A DNA stretch of 64,000 nt, from contig JAHBVT010000001.1 of the NCBI GenBank assembly GCA_019637355.1, forward strand, positions 2,263,192-2,327,191, given 5' to 3'. The position numbers were made by a program, and so were the translations under genes. The stretch comes from Gemmatimonadaceae bacterium. Its GTDB lineage: Bacteria > Gemmatimonadota > Gemmatimonadetes > Gemmatimonadales > Gemmatimonadaceae. Below, in pieces: positions 5,107 through 51,723 of the stretch. Under the pieces are notes generated by a model. It did not search any database and was not told where the DNA came from. It worked only from the letters and a program-made list of their open reading frames with translations. Numbering within the stretch: the stretch's first letter is position 1; each line of letters begins with the position of its first letter.

Positions 5107-6411
5107 ATGCGCCAATCGTTCTCGCTGCTGCTCGCCTTGTCTCTTGCGGCCCCGCTGGCCGCACAGGCCCCCTCCCCGCTCAGCGCCGAGCTCGATCGCC
5201 GGCTGAGCGGCGTGATGCCCAAGGTCGTGGCCTGGCGGCGCGACATCCACGAGCACCCCGAGCTCAGTGGCTTCGAAGTACGCACGGCGGCCTTGGTTGC
5301 CGATCACCTGCGGTCGCTCGGAATGGAAGTGCGCACCGGCGTGGGCGGGCACGGCGTGGTCGGCGTGTTGCGCGGTGGGCGCCCGGGGCGCGTCGTCGCG
5401 CTGCGCGCTGATATGGACGGACTGCCCGTGACCGAGCAGGTGGACCTGCCCTTCCGCTCGCGCGTCCGTGCGCAGTACAACGGCCAGGAAGTCGGCGTGA
5501 TGCACGCCTGCGGACACGACAATCACGTGGCCATCCTGATGGGCACGGCGGAATTGCTGGCCGGGATGCGCGCGCAGTTGCCGGGCACGGTGGTGTTCAT
5601 CTTCCAGCCGGCCGAGGAGGGTCACCCCGATGGCGGTGGCGGCGCCGAGCGGATGATCGCCGACGGCGTGCTCGACGACCCGAAGGTGGAGGCGATCTTC
5701 GGCCTGCACGTGTGGTCGGGCAAGCTGGGCGAGATCACGTACCGGCCCGGCCCGACGATGGCGGCGTCCAACTCCTACCGCATCACGGTGCACGGGCGCC
5801 AGACGCACGGCGCCAATCCCTGGGGCGGCATCGACCCCATCGTCGTCGGCTCGCAGATCGTGATGGGCCTGCAGACCATCGTCTCGCGGCAGACGGACAT
5901 CACCGCGAACCCGGCGATCGTGACGGTCGGCCAGTTCAACGGCGGCGTGCGGAACAACATCATCCCGGACTCGGCGGTGCTGGTCGGGACCATCCGCACG
6001 TTCAGCGGCGAGCAGAAGGCCGACATCTTCCGCCGCGTGCAGGCCACGGCGCAGCACATCGCGATGGCGTCGGGCGCGCGCGTCGAGGTGAAGATCGACT
6101 CGGGCTACATCGTGACGCGCAATGACGAGGCGCTCACGGCGCGGATGCTTCCGACACTGCAGCGCGCGGCGGGCCGCGACAACGTGCAGCTCGCGCCGCT
6201 GGCTACTGGTGCCGAGGATTTCTCGTACTTCCAGGCGCGCGTGCCCGGGCTGTTCATCTTCCTGGGCGTGTCCAAGGCGGACGCGGACCTCAACACCGTG
6301 CCGCGCAACCACTCGCCGCTGTTCTTTGCGGACGAAGCGGCGCTGCCGGTGGGAGTTAAGGCGATGAGCTCGCTGGCGCTGGACTGGCTGGCGCAGAATC
6401 CTCGGCGCTGA
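5107..6411 (+). CDS. Exported M20-family amidohydrolase/peptidase
   Basis: 434 residues starting MRQSFSLLLALSLAAPLAAQA, a clear signal peptide cut near residue 20. Zinc-site motifs of the M20/AbgB-IAA-amino-acid hydrolase group are present in order: DIHEHPELSG, ADMDGLPV, HACGHDNHVAILMG and PAEEGHPDGGGGAERM, with the dimerisation lid region following and TGAEDFSYF near the C-terminus. These enzymes remove acyl groups from amino acids or cut small peptides. Export suggests nutrient scavenging in the periplasm. A longer frame upstream lacks coding sense. The 3' end overlaps the convergent ccmI-like gene by 56 bases. Confidence 0.9.
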   Translation: MRQSFSLLLALSLAAPLAAQAPSPLSAELDRRLSGVMPKVVAWRRDIHEHPELSGFEVRTAALVADHLRSLGMEVRTGVGGHGVVGVLRGGRPGRVVALRADMDGLPVTEQVDLPFRSRVRAQYNGQEVGVMHACGHDNHVAILMGTAELLAGMRAQLPGTVVFIFQPAEEGHPDGGGGAERMIADGVLDDPKVEAIFGLHVWSGKLGEITYRPGPTMAASNSYRITVHGRQTHGANPWGGIDPIVVGSQIVMGLQTIVSRQTDITANPAIVTVGQFNGGVRNNIIPDSAVLVGTIRTFSGEQKADIFRRVQATAQHIAMASGARVEVKIDSGYIVTRNDEALTARMLPTLQRAAGRDNVQLAPLATGAEDFSYFQARVPGLFIFLGVSKADADLNTVPRNHSPLFFADEAALPVGVKAMSSLALDWLAQNPRR

Positions 6412-6892
6412 GCCCCGCCCCGCACTCCACGCAGAACTTCGCGTCACTGTCCACGGCGGCGCCGCAGGACGGACAGCCAGCCCCGAGCATCCGCCCGCAG
6501 TCGGAGCAGAACAGCGCGTCCGACTCGGGCCGCGGGCCGCAGTGCGGGCAGGCGACGCCCCCTTGCCGCATCCGTGCGATGAGCGCCTCGGCTGCGTCCT
6601 CAGGCGCGGCGCCGTCCGGTGCGGCGCTCGCGGCGGCCGATTCGCGCGCGCGCAGCTCATCGAGCGCGCGCGGCGTGTACGCCGCCTTGAGCGCCGCGTA
6701 GTCCTCGTCCGACAGCTTGCCGGTGGCTTGGTCGAACTCGATCTCGCGCAGCGCGTCGATGGCACTGGACTCTGGCGCCGCCTCGGGCGCGAGTGCAGTC
6801 AGCGGTGCCGCAGCGGACCCACGTAGAATCGGCAGCAGCACGTACGCCAACGCGAGCACGGCGAGCGCCGCTCCGAGGAACAAGGCCAGCAC
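6356..6892 (-). CDS. CcmI-like membrane protein with C-terminal double zinc ribbon
   Basis: 178 residues, GTG start directly after the ccmH stop. One N-terminal membrane span (FLGAALAVLALAYVLLPIL) and the segment ALREIEFDQATGKLSDEDYAAL at about 47-68 match the N-terminal part of CcmI/CycH, which presents apocytochrome to heme lyase. Instead of the usual TPR domain the C-terminus carries three CPxC/CxxC-type pairs (CPHCG, CSDCG, CPSCG, CVECG), a zinc-ribbon tandem. It is the last gene of the ccm operon. The hybrid architecture is unusual; the ribbons could contact apocytochrome, heme lyase or another protein. The last 56 bases overlap the M20 gene. Confidence 0.75.
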   Translation of the reverse strand: MLALFLGAALAVLALAYVLLPILRGSAAAPLTALAPEAAPESSAIDALREIEFDQATGKLSDEDYAALKAAYTPRALDELRARESAAASAAPDGAAPEDAAEALIARMRQGGVACPHCGPRPESDALFCSDCGRMLGAGCPSCGAAVDSDAKFCVECGAGLSAEDSAPASPAPASSSP

Positions 6893-7474
6893 CTAGGCGT
6901 CCTCGCGCAGCGCGGCCTCGAGCCGCGCCATCTCGTCATCGCTGGCCTGCGGGGCTACAGGCGGGGCACTGGGCGACGCCGCGACGGCAGCCGGCGTCGC
7001 CTTGGCGGTCCAGCGGCGGATCATCATCGTGAGGATGACGCCGCCGGTGGCCATCACCACCGAGGGCACGAAGTAGCCGGCCCAGTTGAAGCCCTGCTTG
7101 ATCGGCGCGGTGAGCGCGACCTCGCCGTAGGTCTCGACGAAGGCATCCTTGATCTCCTGCGCCGTGTAACCACCGGCCACCAGCCGCATCACGTCACGGT
7201 GCATCGCCGGTGACACGCCGCAGGTGAAGTCGGTCGTGCGGCAGGTGTACACGTCGAGGATGCAGGTGCACTGGCACTTGAGCTCACGCTCGAGCCGGTC
7301 GCGTTCGTCCGGCGTCATCGACGGCGTGGCGTCGGGCTTGGCCGGACGGATCACCGGGCGATACGCATTCTGGTCCATCGGCGTGAAGTTCGGCTGCTGG
7401 CCGCCGATGGCACGCGCGCCAAGCGCGAGGCCCGTCCCCGCCGCGGCGACGAAGAACTCGCGACGATTCAGCAT
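6893..7474 (-). CDS. ccmH: Cytochrome c maturation protein CcmH-like, atypical Cys motif
   Basis: 193 residues. MLNRREFF begins a Tat-like/sec signal. Residues about 54-110 (TPDERDRLERELKCQCTC ... MHRDVMRLVAGGYTAQEIKDAFVETYGEVAL) form the CcmH/NrfF/CycL three-helix domain that keeps the apocytochrome CxxCH thiols reduced. The usual LRCxxCQ is replaced by LKCQCTC with Cys at 67, 69 and 71 and further Cys at 78 and 85. A membrane span lies at about 123-142. ATG overlaps the ccmF stop (ATGA). The rest of the operon supports the role; the redox chemistry must differ in detail from classical CcmH. Confidence 0.85.
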   Translation of the reverse strand: MLNRREFFVAAAGTGLALGARAIGGQQPNFTPMDQNAYRPVIRPAKPDATPSMTPDERDRLERELKCQCTCILDVYTCRTTDFTCGVSPAMHRDVMRLVAGGYTAQEIKDAFVETYGEVALTAPIKQGFNWAGYFVPSVVMATGGVILTMMIRRWTAKATPAAVAASPSAPPVAPQASDDEMARLEAALREDA

Positions 7475-9495
7475 CAGACGCCCGCCGTCTCGCGGTGCTG
7501 CGGCGCCAGTTCGGCCACATAGCCGCTCTGCCGGCGTCGTTCGCTCTGCGGCCACATCACGATCAGCCCCCCGATCGCCATCAGCAGGCCGCCGTTCCAG
7601 ACCCAGGCCACCAGCGGATTGAAGTTGATGCGCACCTCGGCGCGGTCGCCGATCGTGCCGGCGAGCACGAGGTACACGTCCTGCCGGCCCTGCGTGAGGA
7701 TGCCGACTTCCGTGGATGGCTGGAAGGTCGGATTGCCGCGCGAATCGAAGTGCTGGCGCTTCTCGCTGGTCAGCGCCGGCTGCGGCCTGCCGTTGACCAC
7801 CGGCAGCAGCGAGACCGCGACGACGTCGCGATTGAGCGCCTTGAACTGCGAGATGCCGTCACTGGTGAAGGTCCAGTCCTGCCCGAACGGGTCCTTCACG
7901 CTGAACGACTCCCCGTCCGCCAGCGTGACGTCGTACTCGGCCTTGAAGGCCATCCCGGCGAATGCCGAGAAGAGGATGACGATGCCGGCGTGCACGATGT
8001 AGCCACCGTAGCGGCGCCGGTTGCGCGCCACGAGGTTCACGAAGGCGACGGCGATGTTCTCGCCGTGCATCTTCGTCCGCGCACCGATGCCTTTGTAGAA
8101 CTCCTGCACGATGGTGCCCGCGACGAAGGCGCCGAGGCCCCAGGCCATCAGCGGGTAGAGCTCGCGGGCCCCGAGCGTCCACAGCGCCGCCGCGGCGACG
8201 ACGCCGACGAAGGCCGGACCGGCGAACTGCCGCTGGATGTTCTGCACCGACGCGCGGCGCCAGGCGATCAGCGGCCCGATGCCCGTCAGCGCCAGCAGCA
8301 GCAGGCCCAGCGGCACGTTCACCGTGTTGAAGAAGCTCTCGCCGACCGTGATCTTCGAGCCACGCACGGCCTCGGAGAGGATCGGGAACAGCGTGCCCCA
8401 GAGCACCGAGAACGCGATGCCGACCAGGACGAGGTTGTTGTAGAGGAAGGCCGCTTCGCGCGAGATCATCGCCTCGAGCTCGGCCTTGGCCTCGAGGTCC
8501 TTGAGCCGGATGCTCACGAGATACGCCGTGGCCAGCAGCGCCAGCACCATAAACCACGCGAACCAGTGCCCGATGCTGCTTTGCGCGAATGAGTGCACGG
8601 ACTGGATGATGCCCGAGCGCGTGATGAACGTGCCGAGGATGCTCAGCAGGAAGGTGCCGACGACGAGGATCACGTTCCACTTGCGCAGCATTCCGCGCTT
8701 TTCCTGGATCATGATCGAATGCAGGAAGGCGGTGCCCGTGAGCCACGGCAGCAGCGAGGCATTCTCCACCGGATCCCACATCCAGTAGCCGCCCCAGCCG
8801 AGTTCCACGTAGGCCCACCACATCCCGAGCAGGATCCCCAGCGTCAGGAACACCCAGGAGATGAGGCTCCACTTGCGCACCGCGCCCAGCCACTCGGCGT
8901 CGAGCCGACGCGTGATGAGCGCACCGATGGCAAAGCCGAAGGGAATCGCCGTCGCGACGTAGCCGAGGTACAGCAGCGGCGGGTGGATGGCCATCGCCGG
9001 GTTCTGCAGCTGCGGGTTGAGACCGCGGCCGTCAGGCGGGATCCACTCGAGGCGCTCGAAGGGATTCGACGCGATGGCCGTGGCCATCACGAAGAAGAGC
9101 AGCACGGCGGCATTGGTGCCGGTGACCCACGGCATCAGCGTGCGGTTCTTGCTGCGGTTGGTGTACGTCGCCGCCGCCGCGTAGCCGGCGAGCACGAGGC
9201 ACCAGAAGAGCATCGAGCCCGCCTGGCCGCCCCAGAACGCCGAGAACTTGTAGACGATCGGCAGGTTCACCGACGTGAACGACGCCACGTAACGCAGGGA
9301 GAAGTCGCTGGTGAGCAGCGCCGTCCAGAGGCCCAGCGAGGCCAACACCACGAAAGCCGTGGTGGCATAGAGGCCGCGCTCGCCGCTGACGATGAGATCC
9401 TGCCGCTTGAGATAGCCGCCCGCGAACGACAGCGTGACGGCCCACAGGCCCATCAGGAGGGCGATCCAGAGGGAGAGCTCCCCGATGAGAACCAC
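7474..9495 (-). CDS. ccmF: Heme lyase CcmF
   Basis: 673 residues, multi-pass inner-membrane protein of the usual length. The periplasmic heme-handling WWD domain is visible as WGGYWMWDPVENASLLPWLTG around residue 240. FWGGQAGSMLFW near 90 and HPPLLYLGY near 173 are also characteristic (the latter contains a conserved His). CcmF joins heme delivered by CcmE to the CxxCH motif of apocytochromes on the outer face of the inner membrane. It starts 6 bases after the ccmE stop and its TGA overlaps the ccmH start. ccmA, ccmB, ccmC and ccmD are not in the window. Confidence 0.95.
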   Translation of the reverse strand: MVLIGELSLWIALLMGLWAVTLSFAGGYLKRQDLIVSGERGLYATTAFVVLASLGLWTALLTSDFSLRYVASFTSVNLPIVYKFSAFWGGQAGSMLFWCLVLAGYAAAATYTNRSKNRTLMPWVTGTNAAVLLFFVMATAIASNPFERLEWIPPDGRGLNPQLQNPAMAIHPPLLYLGYVATAIPFGFAIGALITRRLDAEWLGAVRKWSLISWVFLTLGILLGMWWAYVELGWGGYWMWDPVENASLLPWLTGTAFLHSIMIQEKRGMLRKWNVILVVGTFLLSILGTFITRSGIIQSVHSFAQSSIGHWFAWFMVLALLATAYLVSIRLKDLEAKAELEAMISREAAFLYNNLVLVGIAFSVLWGTLFPILSEAVRGSKITVGESFFNTVNVPLGLLLLALTGIGPLIAWRRASVQNIQRQFAGPAFVGVVAAAALWTLGARELYPLMAWGLGAFVAGTIVQEFYKGIGARTKMHGENIAVAFVNLVARNRRRYGGYIVHAGIVILFSAFAGMAFKAEYDVTLADGESFSVKDPFGQDWTFTSDGISQFKALNRDVVAVSLLPVVNGRPQPALTSEKRQHFDSRGNPTFQPSTEVGILTQGRQDVYLVLAGTIGDRAEVRINFNPLVAWVWNGGLLMAIGGLIVMWPQSERRRQSGYVAELAPQHRETAGV

Positions 9496-9501
9496 GGCGG
9501 A

Positions 9502-9966
9502 CTACTTCTTGTGCGAGTCGGGCATCGGCGCGCCGGCCTTGATGGCCTCGCGCATCGCGTCGTAACCCTCGGGCGCCTCTTCATAGCGCGAGGCGCACTT
9601 GGCCAGCAGCGTCGTCGCCTGGAAGGTGCCGCTCGCATCCAGGCGGCCCTCGACCACGACTTCAACGGAATCCGAGAACGTGTCCGGGATGATGCCGCGA
9701 TAGACCACCGGATACGTGGCGCGCCCGTCCGTCATATCGAAGGCGACCATCCGACCGGAGGAATCGCGCTGCACCGTGCCGGGGACGACGCGCGCACCGA
9801 CCTTCACGCCCGTGCCGATGAGGGTCGGGTCCTGCGCGACCTTGGCCTCGAGTTCGTGCGGCATCAGGAAGTAGATGCCGGTGTCCTTGATGGCCCCGGC
9901 CATCAGGACGGCCGCGGCGCCGAGGACGACGGCCCCACCGAGGAGGAATTTGTTGCGCGGGTGCAT
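9502..9966 (-). CDS. ccmE: Heme chaperone CcmE, CxxxY (Cys-type) variant
   Basis: 154 residues with one N-terminal membrane anchor (FLLGGAVVLGAAAVLMAG) and a periplasmic OB-fold domain. In textbook CcmE the heme is bound through a His in HxxxY. Here the equivalent position reads LLAKCASRY, so Cys124 replaces His and Tyr128 is kept. Such CxxxY forms are known from Desulfovibrio and some archaea. The protein receives heme and hands it to CcmF, encoded next in the operon. The ATG at 9966 was chosen because the membrane segment starts right after it and upstream codons overlap the promoter region. Confidence 0.93.
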   Translation of the reverse strand: MHPRNKFLLGGAVVLGAAAVLMAGAIKDTGIYFLMPHELEAKVAQDPTLIGTGVKVGARVVPGTVQRDSSGRMVAFDMTDGRATYPVVYRGIIPDTFSDSVEVVVEGRLDASGTFQATTLLAKCASRYEEAPEGYDAMREAIKAGAPMPDSHKK

Positions 9967-11321: not shown

Positions 11322-12547
<1,226 letters not shown>

Positions 12548-13758: not shown

Positions 13759-14238
13759 CTACGCGCTGCGGTGCGCGAACACCCAGCGATTCGCGCGGAT
13801 GAAGTCGAGCGGCTTGATCGCGCGGAGGCCGAAGTGCCGGCAGACCGTCGGGATCTTCGGCCGGTCCGTCGTGCCGTCGTCGTTCTCGCCCGTGACGACG
13901 ACGGTGCCCTGCGTGCGCGCCAGCGCGATCACGAAGGGGTCGGCGCCGGAGCGGCCCTTCCGCGTGTCGATGAGCTTCGGGAACGCGCCCAGGATCTCGG
14001 CGACGGCGGTCTGCTGCGCCGCGTCGAGGTCGACGAAGAGGCCGCGCTGCTTCTTGGCCCACTTGAGCAGCGCGTCGTCCTTCTTCGCGATCTCAACGCG
14101 CACCTCCTCCGCGGCGACGAACCGCCCGGCCGCGATGCCTTCCTCGATGGCCTGCCACAGCTGGGGGAAGACGTCCGGCGGATAGCTCCGGTTCCACGCA
14201 TCCAGGAGGGCGCTGGTGTCCAGGCAGTAGCGCGTCAC
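13759..14238 (-). CDS. PIN-domain toxin (DUF4411-like)
   Basis: 159 residues. MTRYCLDTSALLDAW begins with the first conserved Asp of the PIN RNase fold. Acidic positions follow in AAEEVRVEI (about 45) and GADPFVIALARTQG (about 100, second metal-binding Asp). KIPTVCRHFGLRAIKPLDFIR near the C-terminus fits the DUF4411 subgroup. PIN toxins cut RNA and are held in check by a partner protein. Here the start overlaps the stop of the XRE/M78 gene (ATGA), the standard layout of this antitoxin-toxin pair. A long hairpin follows the gene. Confidence 0.88.
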   Translation of the reverse strand: MTRYCLDTSALLDAWNRSYPPDVFPQLWQAIEEGIAAGRFVAAEEVRVEIAKKDDALLKWAKKQRGLFVDLDAAQQTAVAEILGAFPKLIDTRKGRSGADPFVIALARTQGTVVVTGENDDGTTDRPKIPTVCRHFGLRAIKPLDFIRANRWVFAHRSA

Positions 14239-15422
14239 GCGGACTCGGCGAGGTCTTCTTTTCGCAGCGCGGTCCGGATCTGCTCGACCTGCGGCATCTT
14301 GACGCGCAGGTATTCGGTCAGGTCCGCGCTCGAGATGCGCTGCTCGTCATAGGCGCCCAGTGCGAGGCGCGCGAAGCGGCGGCCCGCCCAGCCCAGCGCA
14401 CGCCGGAAGTACGGCACGGGCCCGCCCTTCGGTTTGTCCCGCTCCCAGGCCTTCACGAAGGCAGCGTGCCGGGTGCTGTAGAGCGCGGCCGGATAGCGCC
14501 CGGCCTGCACCAAGGCCCGCAGCGCGGCATCCGTGCTGATCGCGTACCGATCGGCGAGCAACCGCAGCGTCGCGTCCGCCCACTCGCGCTCCGCCGTAAG
14601 GTCGAGGGCGACGAGGCTTTCCGCGAGCGAGTCGCGGGGCACGAGCAGCGCGCCGGCCACGCGATTGCAATAGACCTCGACGCGGTCCGTCTCACCGGTC
14701 GCGGCGGCATTGTCGTGCAGGTCGCACACGCCACTCGATCGGACGGCGACGTGCGCGAGCTCGTGCATCAGCGTGAAGATGCGCCCGCGCGGGCTCTCCT
14801 TGGAGTTGAGGGCGACGACCGGCAGCGGGAAGTGCGCGAGCGAGAACCCGCGGGCCTCGCCCATCGGCAGATTCTCGGTCTGGAACACGAGCACGCCGAC
14901 GCGCTCAACCGCGCGCTTCCATCCGTTCAGCGCGACGTACTGGTCGGTCCACGCGAACTGCTCGGCGAGCGACACGCCGAGCGCGGCGCGCAGCGCGTCG
15001 GCGACGGCGAGCGGGTCCTGGGACAACGCAGCGGTGACCGGGAACGGCGGAGGCTCCTCCCCGAGACTGGCGGCGAGTTCCAGCGCGGCCTCGCGCCGCT
15101 GCTGCGCGCGCCGCGTCTCGAGCGCAAGCCGCGGGGTCTCGAGGGTGCGTCGCTTACCCTCGACGGTGCGGAAGTCGCGCAGCGGTGTGAAGCCCTGCGG
15201 CGGCTCAGGCAGGTAAAAGACGGCCAGCGGGCGCTTGTACAGCGTTGCCATCTTGCGCAGCTGCGCGAGCGAGAGCGGCTTGTTCCCCGTCTCCCACGCC
15301 TCGATCGCGGCCGCTCCCACCTTCAGGCGCTTCGCGGCGGTCGCGACATCGAAGCCCGCCGTCGTCCGCGCCCAATGCACGAGCGCGGGCGTGACGAGCG
15401 CAGGAAGACGTCCAGAAGCCAC
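14235..15422 (-). CDS. XRE-type regulator fused to ImmA/IrrE (M78) metallopeptidase, antitoxin partner
   Basis: 395 residues, GTG start. The N-terminal XRE helix-turn-helix spans about 15-65 (LKVGAAAIEAWETGNKPLSLAQLRKMATLYKRP). The C-terminal half is an ImmA/IrrE peptidase with HELAH (HExxH zinc site) near residue 220 and the third ligand region VEVYCNRVAGALLVP. Fusions of this kind pair with PIN/DUF4411 toxins in type II-like modules and presumably repress the operon and bind the toxin. The long C-terminal extension is normal for the group. A TATCTT sequence 53 bases upstream on the minus strand may be the -10. Confidence 0.9.
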   Translation of the reverse strand: MASGRLPALVTPALVHWARTTAGFDVATAAKRLKVGAAAIEAWETGNKPLSLAQLRKMATLYKRPLAVFYLPEPPQGFTPLRDFRTVEGKRRTLETPRLALETRRAQQRREAALELAASLGEEPPPFPVTAALSQDPLAVADALRAALGVSLAEQFAWTDQYVALNGWKRAVERVGVLVFQTENLPMGEARGFSLAHFPLPVVALNSKESPRGRIFTLMHELAHVAVRSSGVCDLHDNAAATGETDRVEVYCNRVAGALLVPRDSLAESLVALDLTAEREWADATLRLLADRYAISTDAALRALVQAGRYPAALYSTRHAAFVKAWERDKPKGGPVPYFRRALGWAGRRFARLALGAYDEQRISSADLTEYLRVKMPQVEQIRTALRKEDLAESA

Positions 15423-49681: not shown

Positions 49682-51100
49682 GTGACCGCACCATCCCGCG
49701 AGACGGCTGGGTCCGTCCGCTCTGCCCACGTGGCGTATTTCCTTCCCCCGGATTGGGGGCGCATCGCCCGTCATATCGCGCCCGCGCTCGAACGCGCCGG
49801 CGGCGAATCCCCTGCGGTCCGACTGCTCGTCCTCGTTCCGGACGCCGGTGCCGCCGTGGCCCTGAGCCGCGCGATGAGCGCCCTCGCCTCCGGACAGCGC
49901 ATCGTTGCCGCCACGTCCCCGGCGCGCCTGCAGCGCCTGCTCGGCGCCGCCGCGGCCGATTGCGTCGTCGGTGCGCCGGAGACCATCGCCGCCGGCCTCG
50001 GCGCCGCCGCCCTCAAGCTCGACACCGTCACCAGCGTCGTCTTCGCCGCTGCCGACGAGATGGACGCCGAGTCCGACGCGCTCGCGGCCGTGATGTCCGA
50101 GGTCCCGAAGGCCGCCACGCGTCTGCTCACCGCGCTCGCCCCCACCGAGGGCGTCGACGCACTCATCACGCGCTATCTCGCGCGCGCCCGCCGCGTGCAG
50201 GAAGACGTCGTGCCCGCCGAGGGCACACCGACGGCGCCCACGGTTCGCTTTCTCACCGTCAGCGGCGATCCCCTCGACGTCCTCCCAGGCCTGCTCGACG
50301 AGCTCGACGCGCCGTCCGCCACGATCCTCGCGGGCAGCGACGAAGCCGCCGCCTCCGCGCGGCAGTTGCTCGCCGCCGTGGGCTACCCCGAGGGCACGCT
50401 CGCTGACGTCACGCGCGAAGTCGTGAAGCCCAACACCGCGCTGGTCATCACGCTCGGCATCCCTACCGCCACCGCCTGGACCGCCGCCGTCGCGGCGCAG
50501 CCGGCCCAGATCGTGGCGCTCTGCGCGCCGCGGGACTTGGATGCGCTGCGCCTGCTGGCCGGCGAGGCCACACCGCGTCCCTTGGCCGACCGGGCGAGCA
50601 TCTCACGCGCCCGTGCCGCGGAGTCGCGCCGCCGCGCCGAGCTGCGCGCCGAGCTGGCCGAGGGCGTGCCGGCCCGCGAGGTGCTCGCGCTCGAGCCTTT
50701 GCTCCGCGAGCACGACGGGCTCGAGATTGCCGCCGCCGCACTGCGGCTCCTTGAGCGCACCCGCGATGCGCAGGCCGAGCTCGTGCTCGCGGCAGAGCAG
50801 CGCGTACGCTCGCAGATGCGCGAGGCACAGAAGGAGAAGGACCTCGCCGAGCGCAGCGAGCGTCCGGATCGCTTCGAGCGCGGTGATCGCGGTGATCGCG
50901 GTGATCGCGGTGATCGCCCGACCAAGCCACGCATCAGCTCGTTCTCCAAGGACCGCGACAAGCCGCGGACCGGCGGGTTCAAGCGCGATGACAAGCCCCG
51001 CAGCGGCGGCTTCAAGCGGGACGAGCGCCCGCGCAGCGGTGGCTTCAAGCGTGACGACAAGCCGCGCGGTGGCGGCCGTCCGCCGCGAGGCGATCGGTGA
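49682..51100 (+). CDS. Degenerate DEAD-box-helicase-like protein with repetitive basic C-terminal tail
   Basis: 472 residues. The first half follows the RecA-like fold of DEAD-box helicases: [19 protein letters not shown] (motif Ia-like), [14 protein letters not shown] (Ib-like), [25 protein letters not shown] (at the motif II DEAD position) and [13 protein letters not shown] (at the motif III SAT position). Walker A is absent and DEAD has become AADE, so ATP hydrolysis is unlikely. The C-terminus is Arg/Asp/Gly-rich: tandem RGD units (about 400-412), then repeats of [11 protein letters not shown] (about 428-470), as in RGG-type RNA-binding tails. It is probably an RNA-binding non-enzymatic relative. 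tdk overlaps its end (GTGA). Confidence 0.7.
50878..51095 (+). repeat. In-gene tandem repeats encoding RGD and [11 protein letters not shown] units
   Basis: CGCGGTGAT units repeat four times (about 50880-50917), encoding RGD. Then a unit of about 36 bases encoding (K/R)PRSGGFKRD(D/E) repeats about four times (about 50960-51075). Unit number may vary among strains. Confidence 0.75.
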
Positions 51101-51723
51101 GCGGGGCTCTCCAGCTCACCGGCGGCTGGGTCGAGGTCATCGCCGGCGTGATGTTCAGCGGCAAGAGCGAGGAGTTGATGCGTCGCGTACGCCGTTCGAT
51201 CATCGCCAAGAAGCGCGTCCAGGTGTTTAAGTCGCACCTGGACGACCGCTACGCCGGCGGCGTCTTCGCCGTCGGCTCGCACGACGGTCGCACGCTCGAG
51301 GCCATTCCCGTGGATTCGTCGCAGCAGATCGCGCTGCGGCTGGATCCGCTGGCGCAGGTCGTGGCCATCGACGAGGTGCAGTTCCTCGACCAGGGCATCG
51401 TGCGGCTCGCCTGCGACCTCGCGCTGCGCGGACGCCGCGTCATCCTCGCCGGCACCGACACCGACTTCCGCGGCGAACCCTTCGGCCCGATGGCGCCGCT
51501 GATGTGCGTCGCCGAGGTGGTGGACAAGCTGCACGCCATCTGCGTGCTCTGCGGCGCGCCGGCCAGCCGCAACCAGCGCCTCATCGGCGGCAAGCCGGCG
51601 CCCTACGACTCCCCGGTGGTGATGGTGGGCGCGGCGGAGTCCTACGAGGCGCGCTGCAGGGCCTGCCACGCGATCGAGCGTGGGGATGAGTCGCAGCTGA
51701 GGCTAGAGACTGAAGACGGATGA
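51097..51723 (+). CDS. tdk: Thymidine kinase
   Basis: 208 residues, GTG start overlapping the upstream stop (GTGA). Walker A is [20 protein letters not shown] at about 11-30. [13 protein letters not shown] near 90 is the Walker B/lid region; [20 protein letters not shown] binds nucleoside; a zinc site is formed by CVLCGAPAS and CRACH. It phosphorylates thymidine for salvage. The last codons lie inside the left arm of a GACGGATGACGG hairpin repeat, so the repeat sits at the gene end and may terminate transcription. Confidence 0.95.

Follow-up and report, generated by a model that had tools for sequence, protein, structure and literature searches.

The window analyzed here, a stretch of 64,000 nucleotides from contig JAHBVT010000001.1 of a Gemmatimonadaceae bacterium (assembly GCA_019637355.1), carries on its minus strand a group of cytochrome c maturation (ccm) genes. 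We recorded the following features at this locus and upstream of it:

9502..9966, minus strand: ccmE of the Cys type, 154 amino acids, ATG at 9966, motif LLAKCASRY, intact frame
9597-9595, minus strand: TGC codon of Cys124, the heme-binding position of CcmE
7474..9495, minus strand: ccmF, 673 amino acids, with the WWD signature WGGYWMWDPVEN; PF16327 (183.4 bits) and PF01578 (145.2 bits), both above cut-off
6893..7474, minus strand: cysteine-rich ccmH, KCQCTC-x6-C-x6-C; PF03918 (52 bits, cut-off 25)
6356..6892, minus strand: ccmI-like N-terminus fused to a double zinc ribbon; PF12773 (42 bits) and PF13248 (43.3 bits), above cut-off
11322-12547, plus strand: transposase pair upstream of the ccm genes, HTH_Tnp_1 and rve domains, IS3-like by layout
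13759-15422, minus strand: two adjacent frames, by eye of the PIN type and the XRE/ImmA type, perhaps a toxin-antitoxin pair

The ccmF gene closely follows ccmE, and the ATG of ccmH overlaps the ccmF stop codon. The protein translated from positions 9502-9966 (P0001; 154 amino acids), within which lies the stretch TFQATTLLAKCASRYEEAPEG, matches the Pfam family CcmE (PF03100) with 96.9 bits, well above the curated cut-off of 24.6. In phmmer alignments, Cys124 is placed opposite the H of VLAKHDENY in E. coli CcmE (8ce8_E, 1sr3), the position of the heme-binding His130, and opposite the C of LMTKC in D. vulgaris CcmE (2kct). Family match and alignment position bear out the statement of the first-pass annotation that a Cys stands in LLAKCASRY where the heme-binding His is expected. 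Tyr128 lies four residues past Cys124 (CASRY); the protein possesses both the Cys at the heme-binding position and the Tyr/Phe by which System I* is recognized, and it does not possess the HxxxY of canonical System I. When P0001 is aligned with 52 relatives, Cys124 does not vary and Tyr128 is conserved to at least 90%; because one of the two patterns in the scan that supplied these relatives demanded KC, this alignment taken alone is biased. The AlphaFold2 model of CcmE (pLDDT 91.8) has a helix (residues 3-29) and five strands, in keeping with the CcmE fold with its N-terminal helix, and its five best PDB matches are all CcmE structures. The modeled N-terminal helix probably spans the membrane, and Cys124 directly follows the last predicted strand (115-122). 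We rejected a sequencing error or a pseudogene as the source of Cys124, since the frame is intact and all 13 genomes sampled from the genus of the window carry Cys in CcmE.

The genes for the components that would supply CcmE with heme lie on the same contig as ccmE, 1.86 Mb away. This cluster comprises the following genes:

About 410.6-412.8 kb, contig 1: ABC ATPase taken as ccmA; PF00005 (108 bits)
Same interval: ccmB; PF03379 (111 bits)
Same interval: ccmC; PF01578 (103 bits)
Same interval: ccmD candidate of 44 amino acids, recognized by reading only, no Pfam match

In the genome, whose assembly is 96.5% complete, we counted one CcmE, one CcmH and two Cytochrom_C_asm proteins, the latter being the CcmF of the window and a CcmC. 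Neither ResB (System II) nor a second CcmE was found in this assembly; a second, canonical CcmE had been named in the first-pass annotation as a finding that would speak against its reading. When the CcmG of a relative was used as the query, five thioredoxin-like matches with 29-34% identity were obtained elsewhere in the genome, and because of these matches a substitute for CcmG outside the ccm locus is possible. Among the ORFs of the window, the CXXCH motif was found only in the ORF at 51055-51720. That ccmE is decaying or idle, and that the cytochromes are matured by other means, is a reading to which we give hardly any credence: a Cys-type ccmE has decayed in one relative (G016), whose genome contains a His-type operon as well, but the gene in the window is intact, conserved within its genus, and encodes the only CcmE found in a genome in which no ResB was found either.

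We conclude that the ccmE product very probably serves as the heme chaperone in cytochrome c maturation of the System I* type. System I* has been described from archaea and Desulfovibrio, the works cited for it being Allen 2006 and Goddard 2010. As the first-pass annotation had stated, CcmE proteins of the CxxxY type are documented in these two groups (PMC9084895, PMC3884852, PMC3601427). System I* has also been reported from delta-proteobacteria, Chloroflexi and Firmicutes, with CPSKY in 25 of 36 CcmE proteins and F for Y in four (PMC3601427). The system encoded by the genome under study shares with that of Desulfovibrio and Methanosarcina the Cys at the heme site, the Tyr four residues on, the CcmE fold, and CcmABC plus CcmF; it differs in having CASRY rather than CPSKY, a CcmH that is present and cysteine-rich, and a zinc-ribbon CcmI-like protein that follows it. 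With canonical System I of E. coli it has the CcmE family and fold, ccmA-C, ccmF and a CcmH-family protein in common, but Cys replaces His, CcmH carries KCQCTC in place of the plain LRCxxC, and no ccmG was found at the ccm locus of the window. The absence of CcmH belonged to the first description of System I*, was later held not to be characteristic, and CcmH is reported in about one third of the System I* cases (PMC3601427). We do not count this trait as defining; the window encodes a CcmH (P0003; PF03918, 52 bits). A rule that Cys-type CcmE means no CcmH was rejected, as CcmH is present at the locus of the window and at other Cys loci.

In the pathway that we envisage, CcmABCD would export heme and transfer it to Cys124 of CcmE. 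The link formed there would most likely be a thioether with a vinyl group of the heme, Tyr128 serving as the iron ligand. CcmF would take the heme from CcmE and attach it to the CXXCH motifs of apocytochromes, which may be handled by the cysteine-rich CcmH together with the CcmI-like protein. A thioether bond on Cys124 is likely. Cys120 is reported to be required for heme on the CcmE of M. acetivorans, whose heme staining is lost in the C120A variant, and Cys and His of CcmE are reported not to be interchangeable for Methanosarcina and Desulfovibrio (PMC9084895); a Desulfovibrio Cys-type CcmE was reported to carry covalent heme and to function in E. coli when both CcmG and CcmH were missing (PMC3601427). 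Both the staining of the M. acetivorans protein and the covalent heme of the Desulfovibrio protein argue against the alternative that Cys124 holds heme as an iron thiolate only and that CcmE is a non-covalent carrier, an arrangement we consider rather unlikely, although it is the one described for D. vulgaris CcmE, for which non-covalent binding of ferric heme via C127 is reported and which is contrasted with the CcmE of D. desulfuricans (PMC3884852). The sequence by itself does not decide between thioether and thiolate, and the published Desulfovibrio results disagree (PMC3884852).

The Cys residue itself is not new, as it belongs to the known System I* type. What is less familiar is the set of neighbors: CcmH is cysteine-rich, the CcmI-like protein bears a zinc ribbon, and ccmG is lacking at the locus. 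The WWD signature is present in the neighboring CcmF, whose WWD domain the first-pass annotation had described as normal, and an expression for this signature did not separate the Cys and His types. Its view that the variation is confined to the heme carrier has to be abandoned, given that the CcmH motif is altered and cysteine-rich and that ccmG is absent from the locus. Aligning 34 CcmH proteins placed the canonical pair of cysteines at C69 and C73 of P0003. These two also align with those of the PF03918 family member 2hl7 (P. aeruginosa CcmH), and the profile match is shared, but the CcmH of the window differs from 2hl7 by three extra cysteines, C71, C80 and C87. In its fold, the CcmH model matches 2hl7 weakly (Foldseek E 1.8, prob 0.54), and no PDB chain matched P0003 by phmmer. 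The CcmI-like protein scores 28.0 bits against TIGR03142 (CcmI), slightly below the cut-off of 29.3. With a loose expression, a zinc-ribbon frame was seen near ccmE at 50 of 65 Cys-type versus 4 of 26 His-type Gemmatimonadota loci. The literature that we searched, mostly papers outside subscription, contained no account of Cys-type CcmE in Gemmatimonadota and none of a cysteine-rich CcmH, which is a weak sign of novelty.

To place the locus in its phylum, we surveyed CcmE in Gemmatimonadota, where it was detected in 370 of the 395 genomes sampled. We read the motif for 140 genomes, which were picked from score-ordered lists and by family and hence non-randomly: 94 have the Cys type only, 39 the His type only, six have both, and one was unreadable. 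The Cys motifs follow [LV]L[AT]KC[AG]SR[YF], with CPSKY in three read genomes of families f8 and f10, and the His motifs are variants of LMVKHSNEY. Four genera of the window's family (g2, g3, g16, g20) contain both types. The named loci are the best 80 from a scan of 450 relatives, and because one of its two patterns demanded Cys, they are uninformative on the frequency of His. A less biased sample was obtained through a CcmH search in the phylum of L332 (titled Acidobacteria), which gave a match in 100 of 199 genomes. Among 40 CcmH places of that phylum, CcmE lay within reach at 17 (11 His, 6 Cys) and was absent from the fetched stretch at the other 23; all 11 His loci have a CxxC CcmH, and all six Cys loci a cysteine-rich one. 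Ten of the 40 CcmH-fetched loci (L353-L359, L361-L363) encode CcmH-family proteins with PCC, mostly LIAPCCW, with no CcmE in the fetched stretch. Some CcmH matches in the phylum of L332 (e.g., L367, L370, L373) fall within frames of ~770-950 amino acids, which suggests CcmF-CcmH fusions.

For a comparison of complete modules we listed 150 loci. For 13 of them the CcmE type was not assigned automatically; on reading, 12 proved to be Cys (TSCPSKY, AQCPSRY), and the CcmE residue of L334 is unread (X in the sequence). L342, L347 and L348, with 'SH.N.Y' motifs, were counted as His under a special rule. Three loci without a CcmF of 450 amino acids (L280, L282, L290) were dropped, leaving 147 at which CcmE, CcmF and CcmH occur together. 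As six Gemmatimonadota genomes contribute two loci each and the records may include duplicate genomes, these loci are not independent samples. The CcmH proteins were collected with a profile built on seeds read by eye, their frames being taken from the match coordinates, and CcmH was called cysteine-rich when four or more Cys lie near the motif.

At each of the 42 His loci (31 from Gemmatimonadota, 11 from the phylum of L332), CcmH contains one CxxC and is not cysteine-rich, and ccmG is present. At the 104 Cys loci, CcmH is cysteine-rich in 80 cases, has a plain CxxC in 14 and at most one Cys in five; the remainder consists of two proteins of a C-x7-C form (SPYCPG....C), two with three Cys, and the truncated frame of L270. 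L334, which falls outside the 104, has a cysteine-rich CcmH as well. The 80 Cys loci with cysteine-rich CcmH divide into 71 without and nine with ccmG, all nine titled Nitrospinota; if the cysteine-rich CcmH loci are restricted to those with sufficient flank, no ccmG is seen at 62 of 69, as is the case at the locus of the window. Of the 14 plain-CxxC Cys loci, 12 have ccmG and two end too early. A strict tie between CcmE type and CcmH form is excluded by these 14 loci, just as the nine Nitrospinota loci exclude a strict rule that cysteine-rich CcmH means no ccmG. Further forms of CcmH occur in other families. Family f5 has 23 CcmH proteins in 21 genomes (14 of an SP-C-P form with a later Cys, eight cysteine-rich, one incomplete), and in none of its 19 genomes for which a CcmE place is also listed does CcmH lie near ccmE; in family f6, a single cysteine remains in the CcmH motif in four of seven proteins.

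The two CcmE types also reside in differently composed loci. Among Gemmatimonadota loci with enough flank, ccmG accompanies 26 of 26 of the His type and 1 of 65 of the Cys type, and ccmB plus ccmC lie within 4.5 kb at 21 of 26 and 14 of 65, respectively; three Cys loci that do have ccmG (L182, L187, L196) have flanks too short for the 1/65 count and were included in the CcmH/ccmG count. For phylogenetic analysis, near-identical rows of the same class were thinned (from 147 to 82), and the protein of the window stands in for L002, which comes from the same genome. On the resulting CcmF tree (82 rows, 58 Cys and 24 His; quick method), two changes suffice for the Cys/His label, compared to a mean of about 21 for shuffled labels, none of 500 shuffles being as low as two. 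The branch dividing the groups has an SH-aLRT of 92 and is not starred; the exception to the division is L196, a long Cys row on the His side. A CcmE tree computed with the motif removed (93 rows, 111 columns) needs one change, with a support of only 8; L352 is absent from this tree, having been missed by the motif expression.

Judged from these sequences, Cys and His mark two groups of ccmE-F-H modules and not merely two residues, and within the phylum one module seems to have been swapped as a whole for the other among close relatives. The first-pass annotation had treated His-bearing relatives as grounds for refuting its reading. Such relatives do exist in the same family and genera, but they form a separate lineage with a different operon; Cys124 is not a local Cys-for-His substitution, and the reading of Cys stands. 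One genome, G016, looks like a half-done module exchange: besides its His-type operon (L184) it retains a Cys-type locus (L185, 7959-10680) with a ccmF of 67% identity and the CcmI-like gene, ccmE being a remnant that ends in CASRH and ccmH being undetectable at L185 by tblastn. The exceptional L196, from genome G213, has a Cys-type CcmE (LITKCPSKF) and ccmG, and this genome has a second, ordinary Cys-type locus; L196 is possibly a contamination.

The combination of Cys-type CcmE, cysteine-rich CcmH and missing ccmG might represent a chemically distinct branch of maturation, in which the extra CcmH cysteines, as a metal site or a disulfide relay, would replace the thiol reduction by CcmG and the CxxC of CcmH and may aid the release of heme from the CcmE thioether. 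We put this forward as a tentative and rather doubtful proposal. Functional coupling of CcmE type, CcmH form and ccmG loss is possible, and shared descent explains their association equally well. An independent-pairs test of dependence on the CcmF tree yielded one contrast on starred branches and two on all branches, too few for the test to have any power. We lean slightly towards shared descent of neighboring genes as the sole source of the association, with the chemistries uncoupled: the Cys and His types are two groups on the CcmF tree with these few contrasts between them, plain CxxC CcmH stands beside Cys-type CcmE at 14 of 104 loci, and cysteine-rich CcmH beside ccmG at the nine Nitrospinota loci among 80. 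This explanation fits less well with the cysteine-rich label, which needs at least five changes on the CcmF tree and is found at none of the 42 His loci.

A 2011 review of System I called the release of Cys-bound heme puzzling (PMC3601427). Without CcmG, System I* would still need thiol chemistry, for which the cysteine-rich CcmH is a concrete candidate. Since Cys and His types co-occur in Gemmatimonadota within genera and even within single genomes, the two heme chemistries can be compared there in close relatives.
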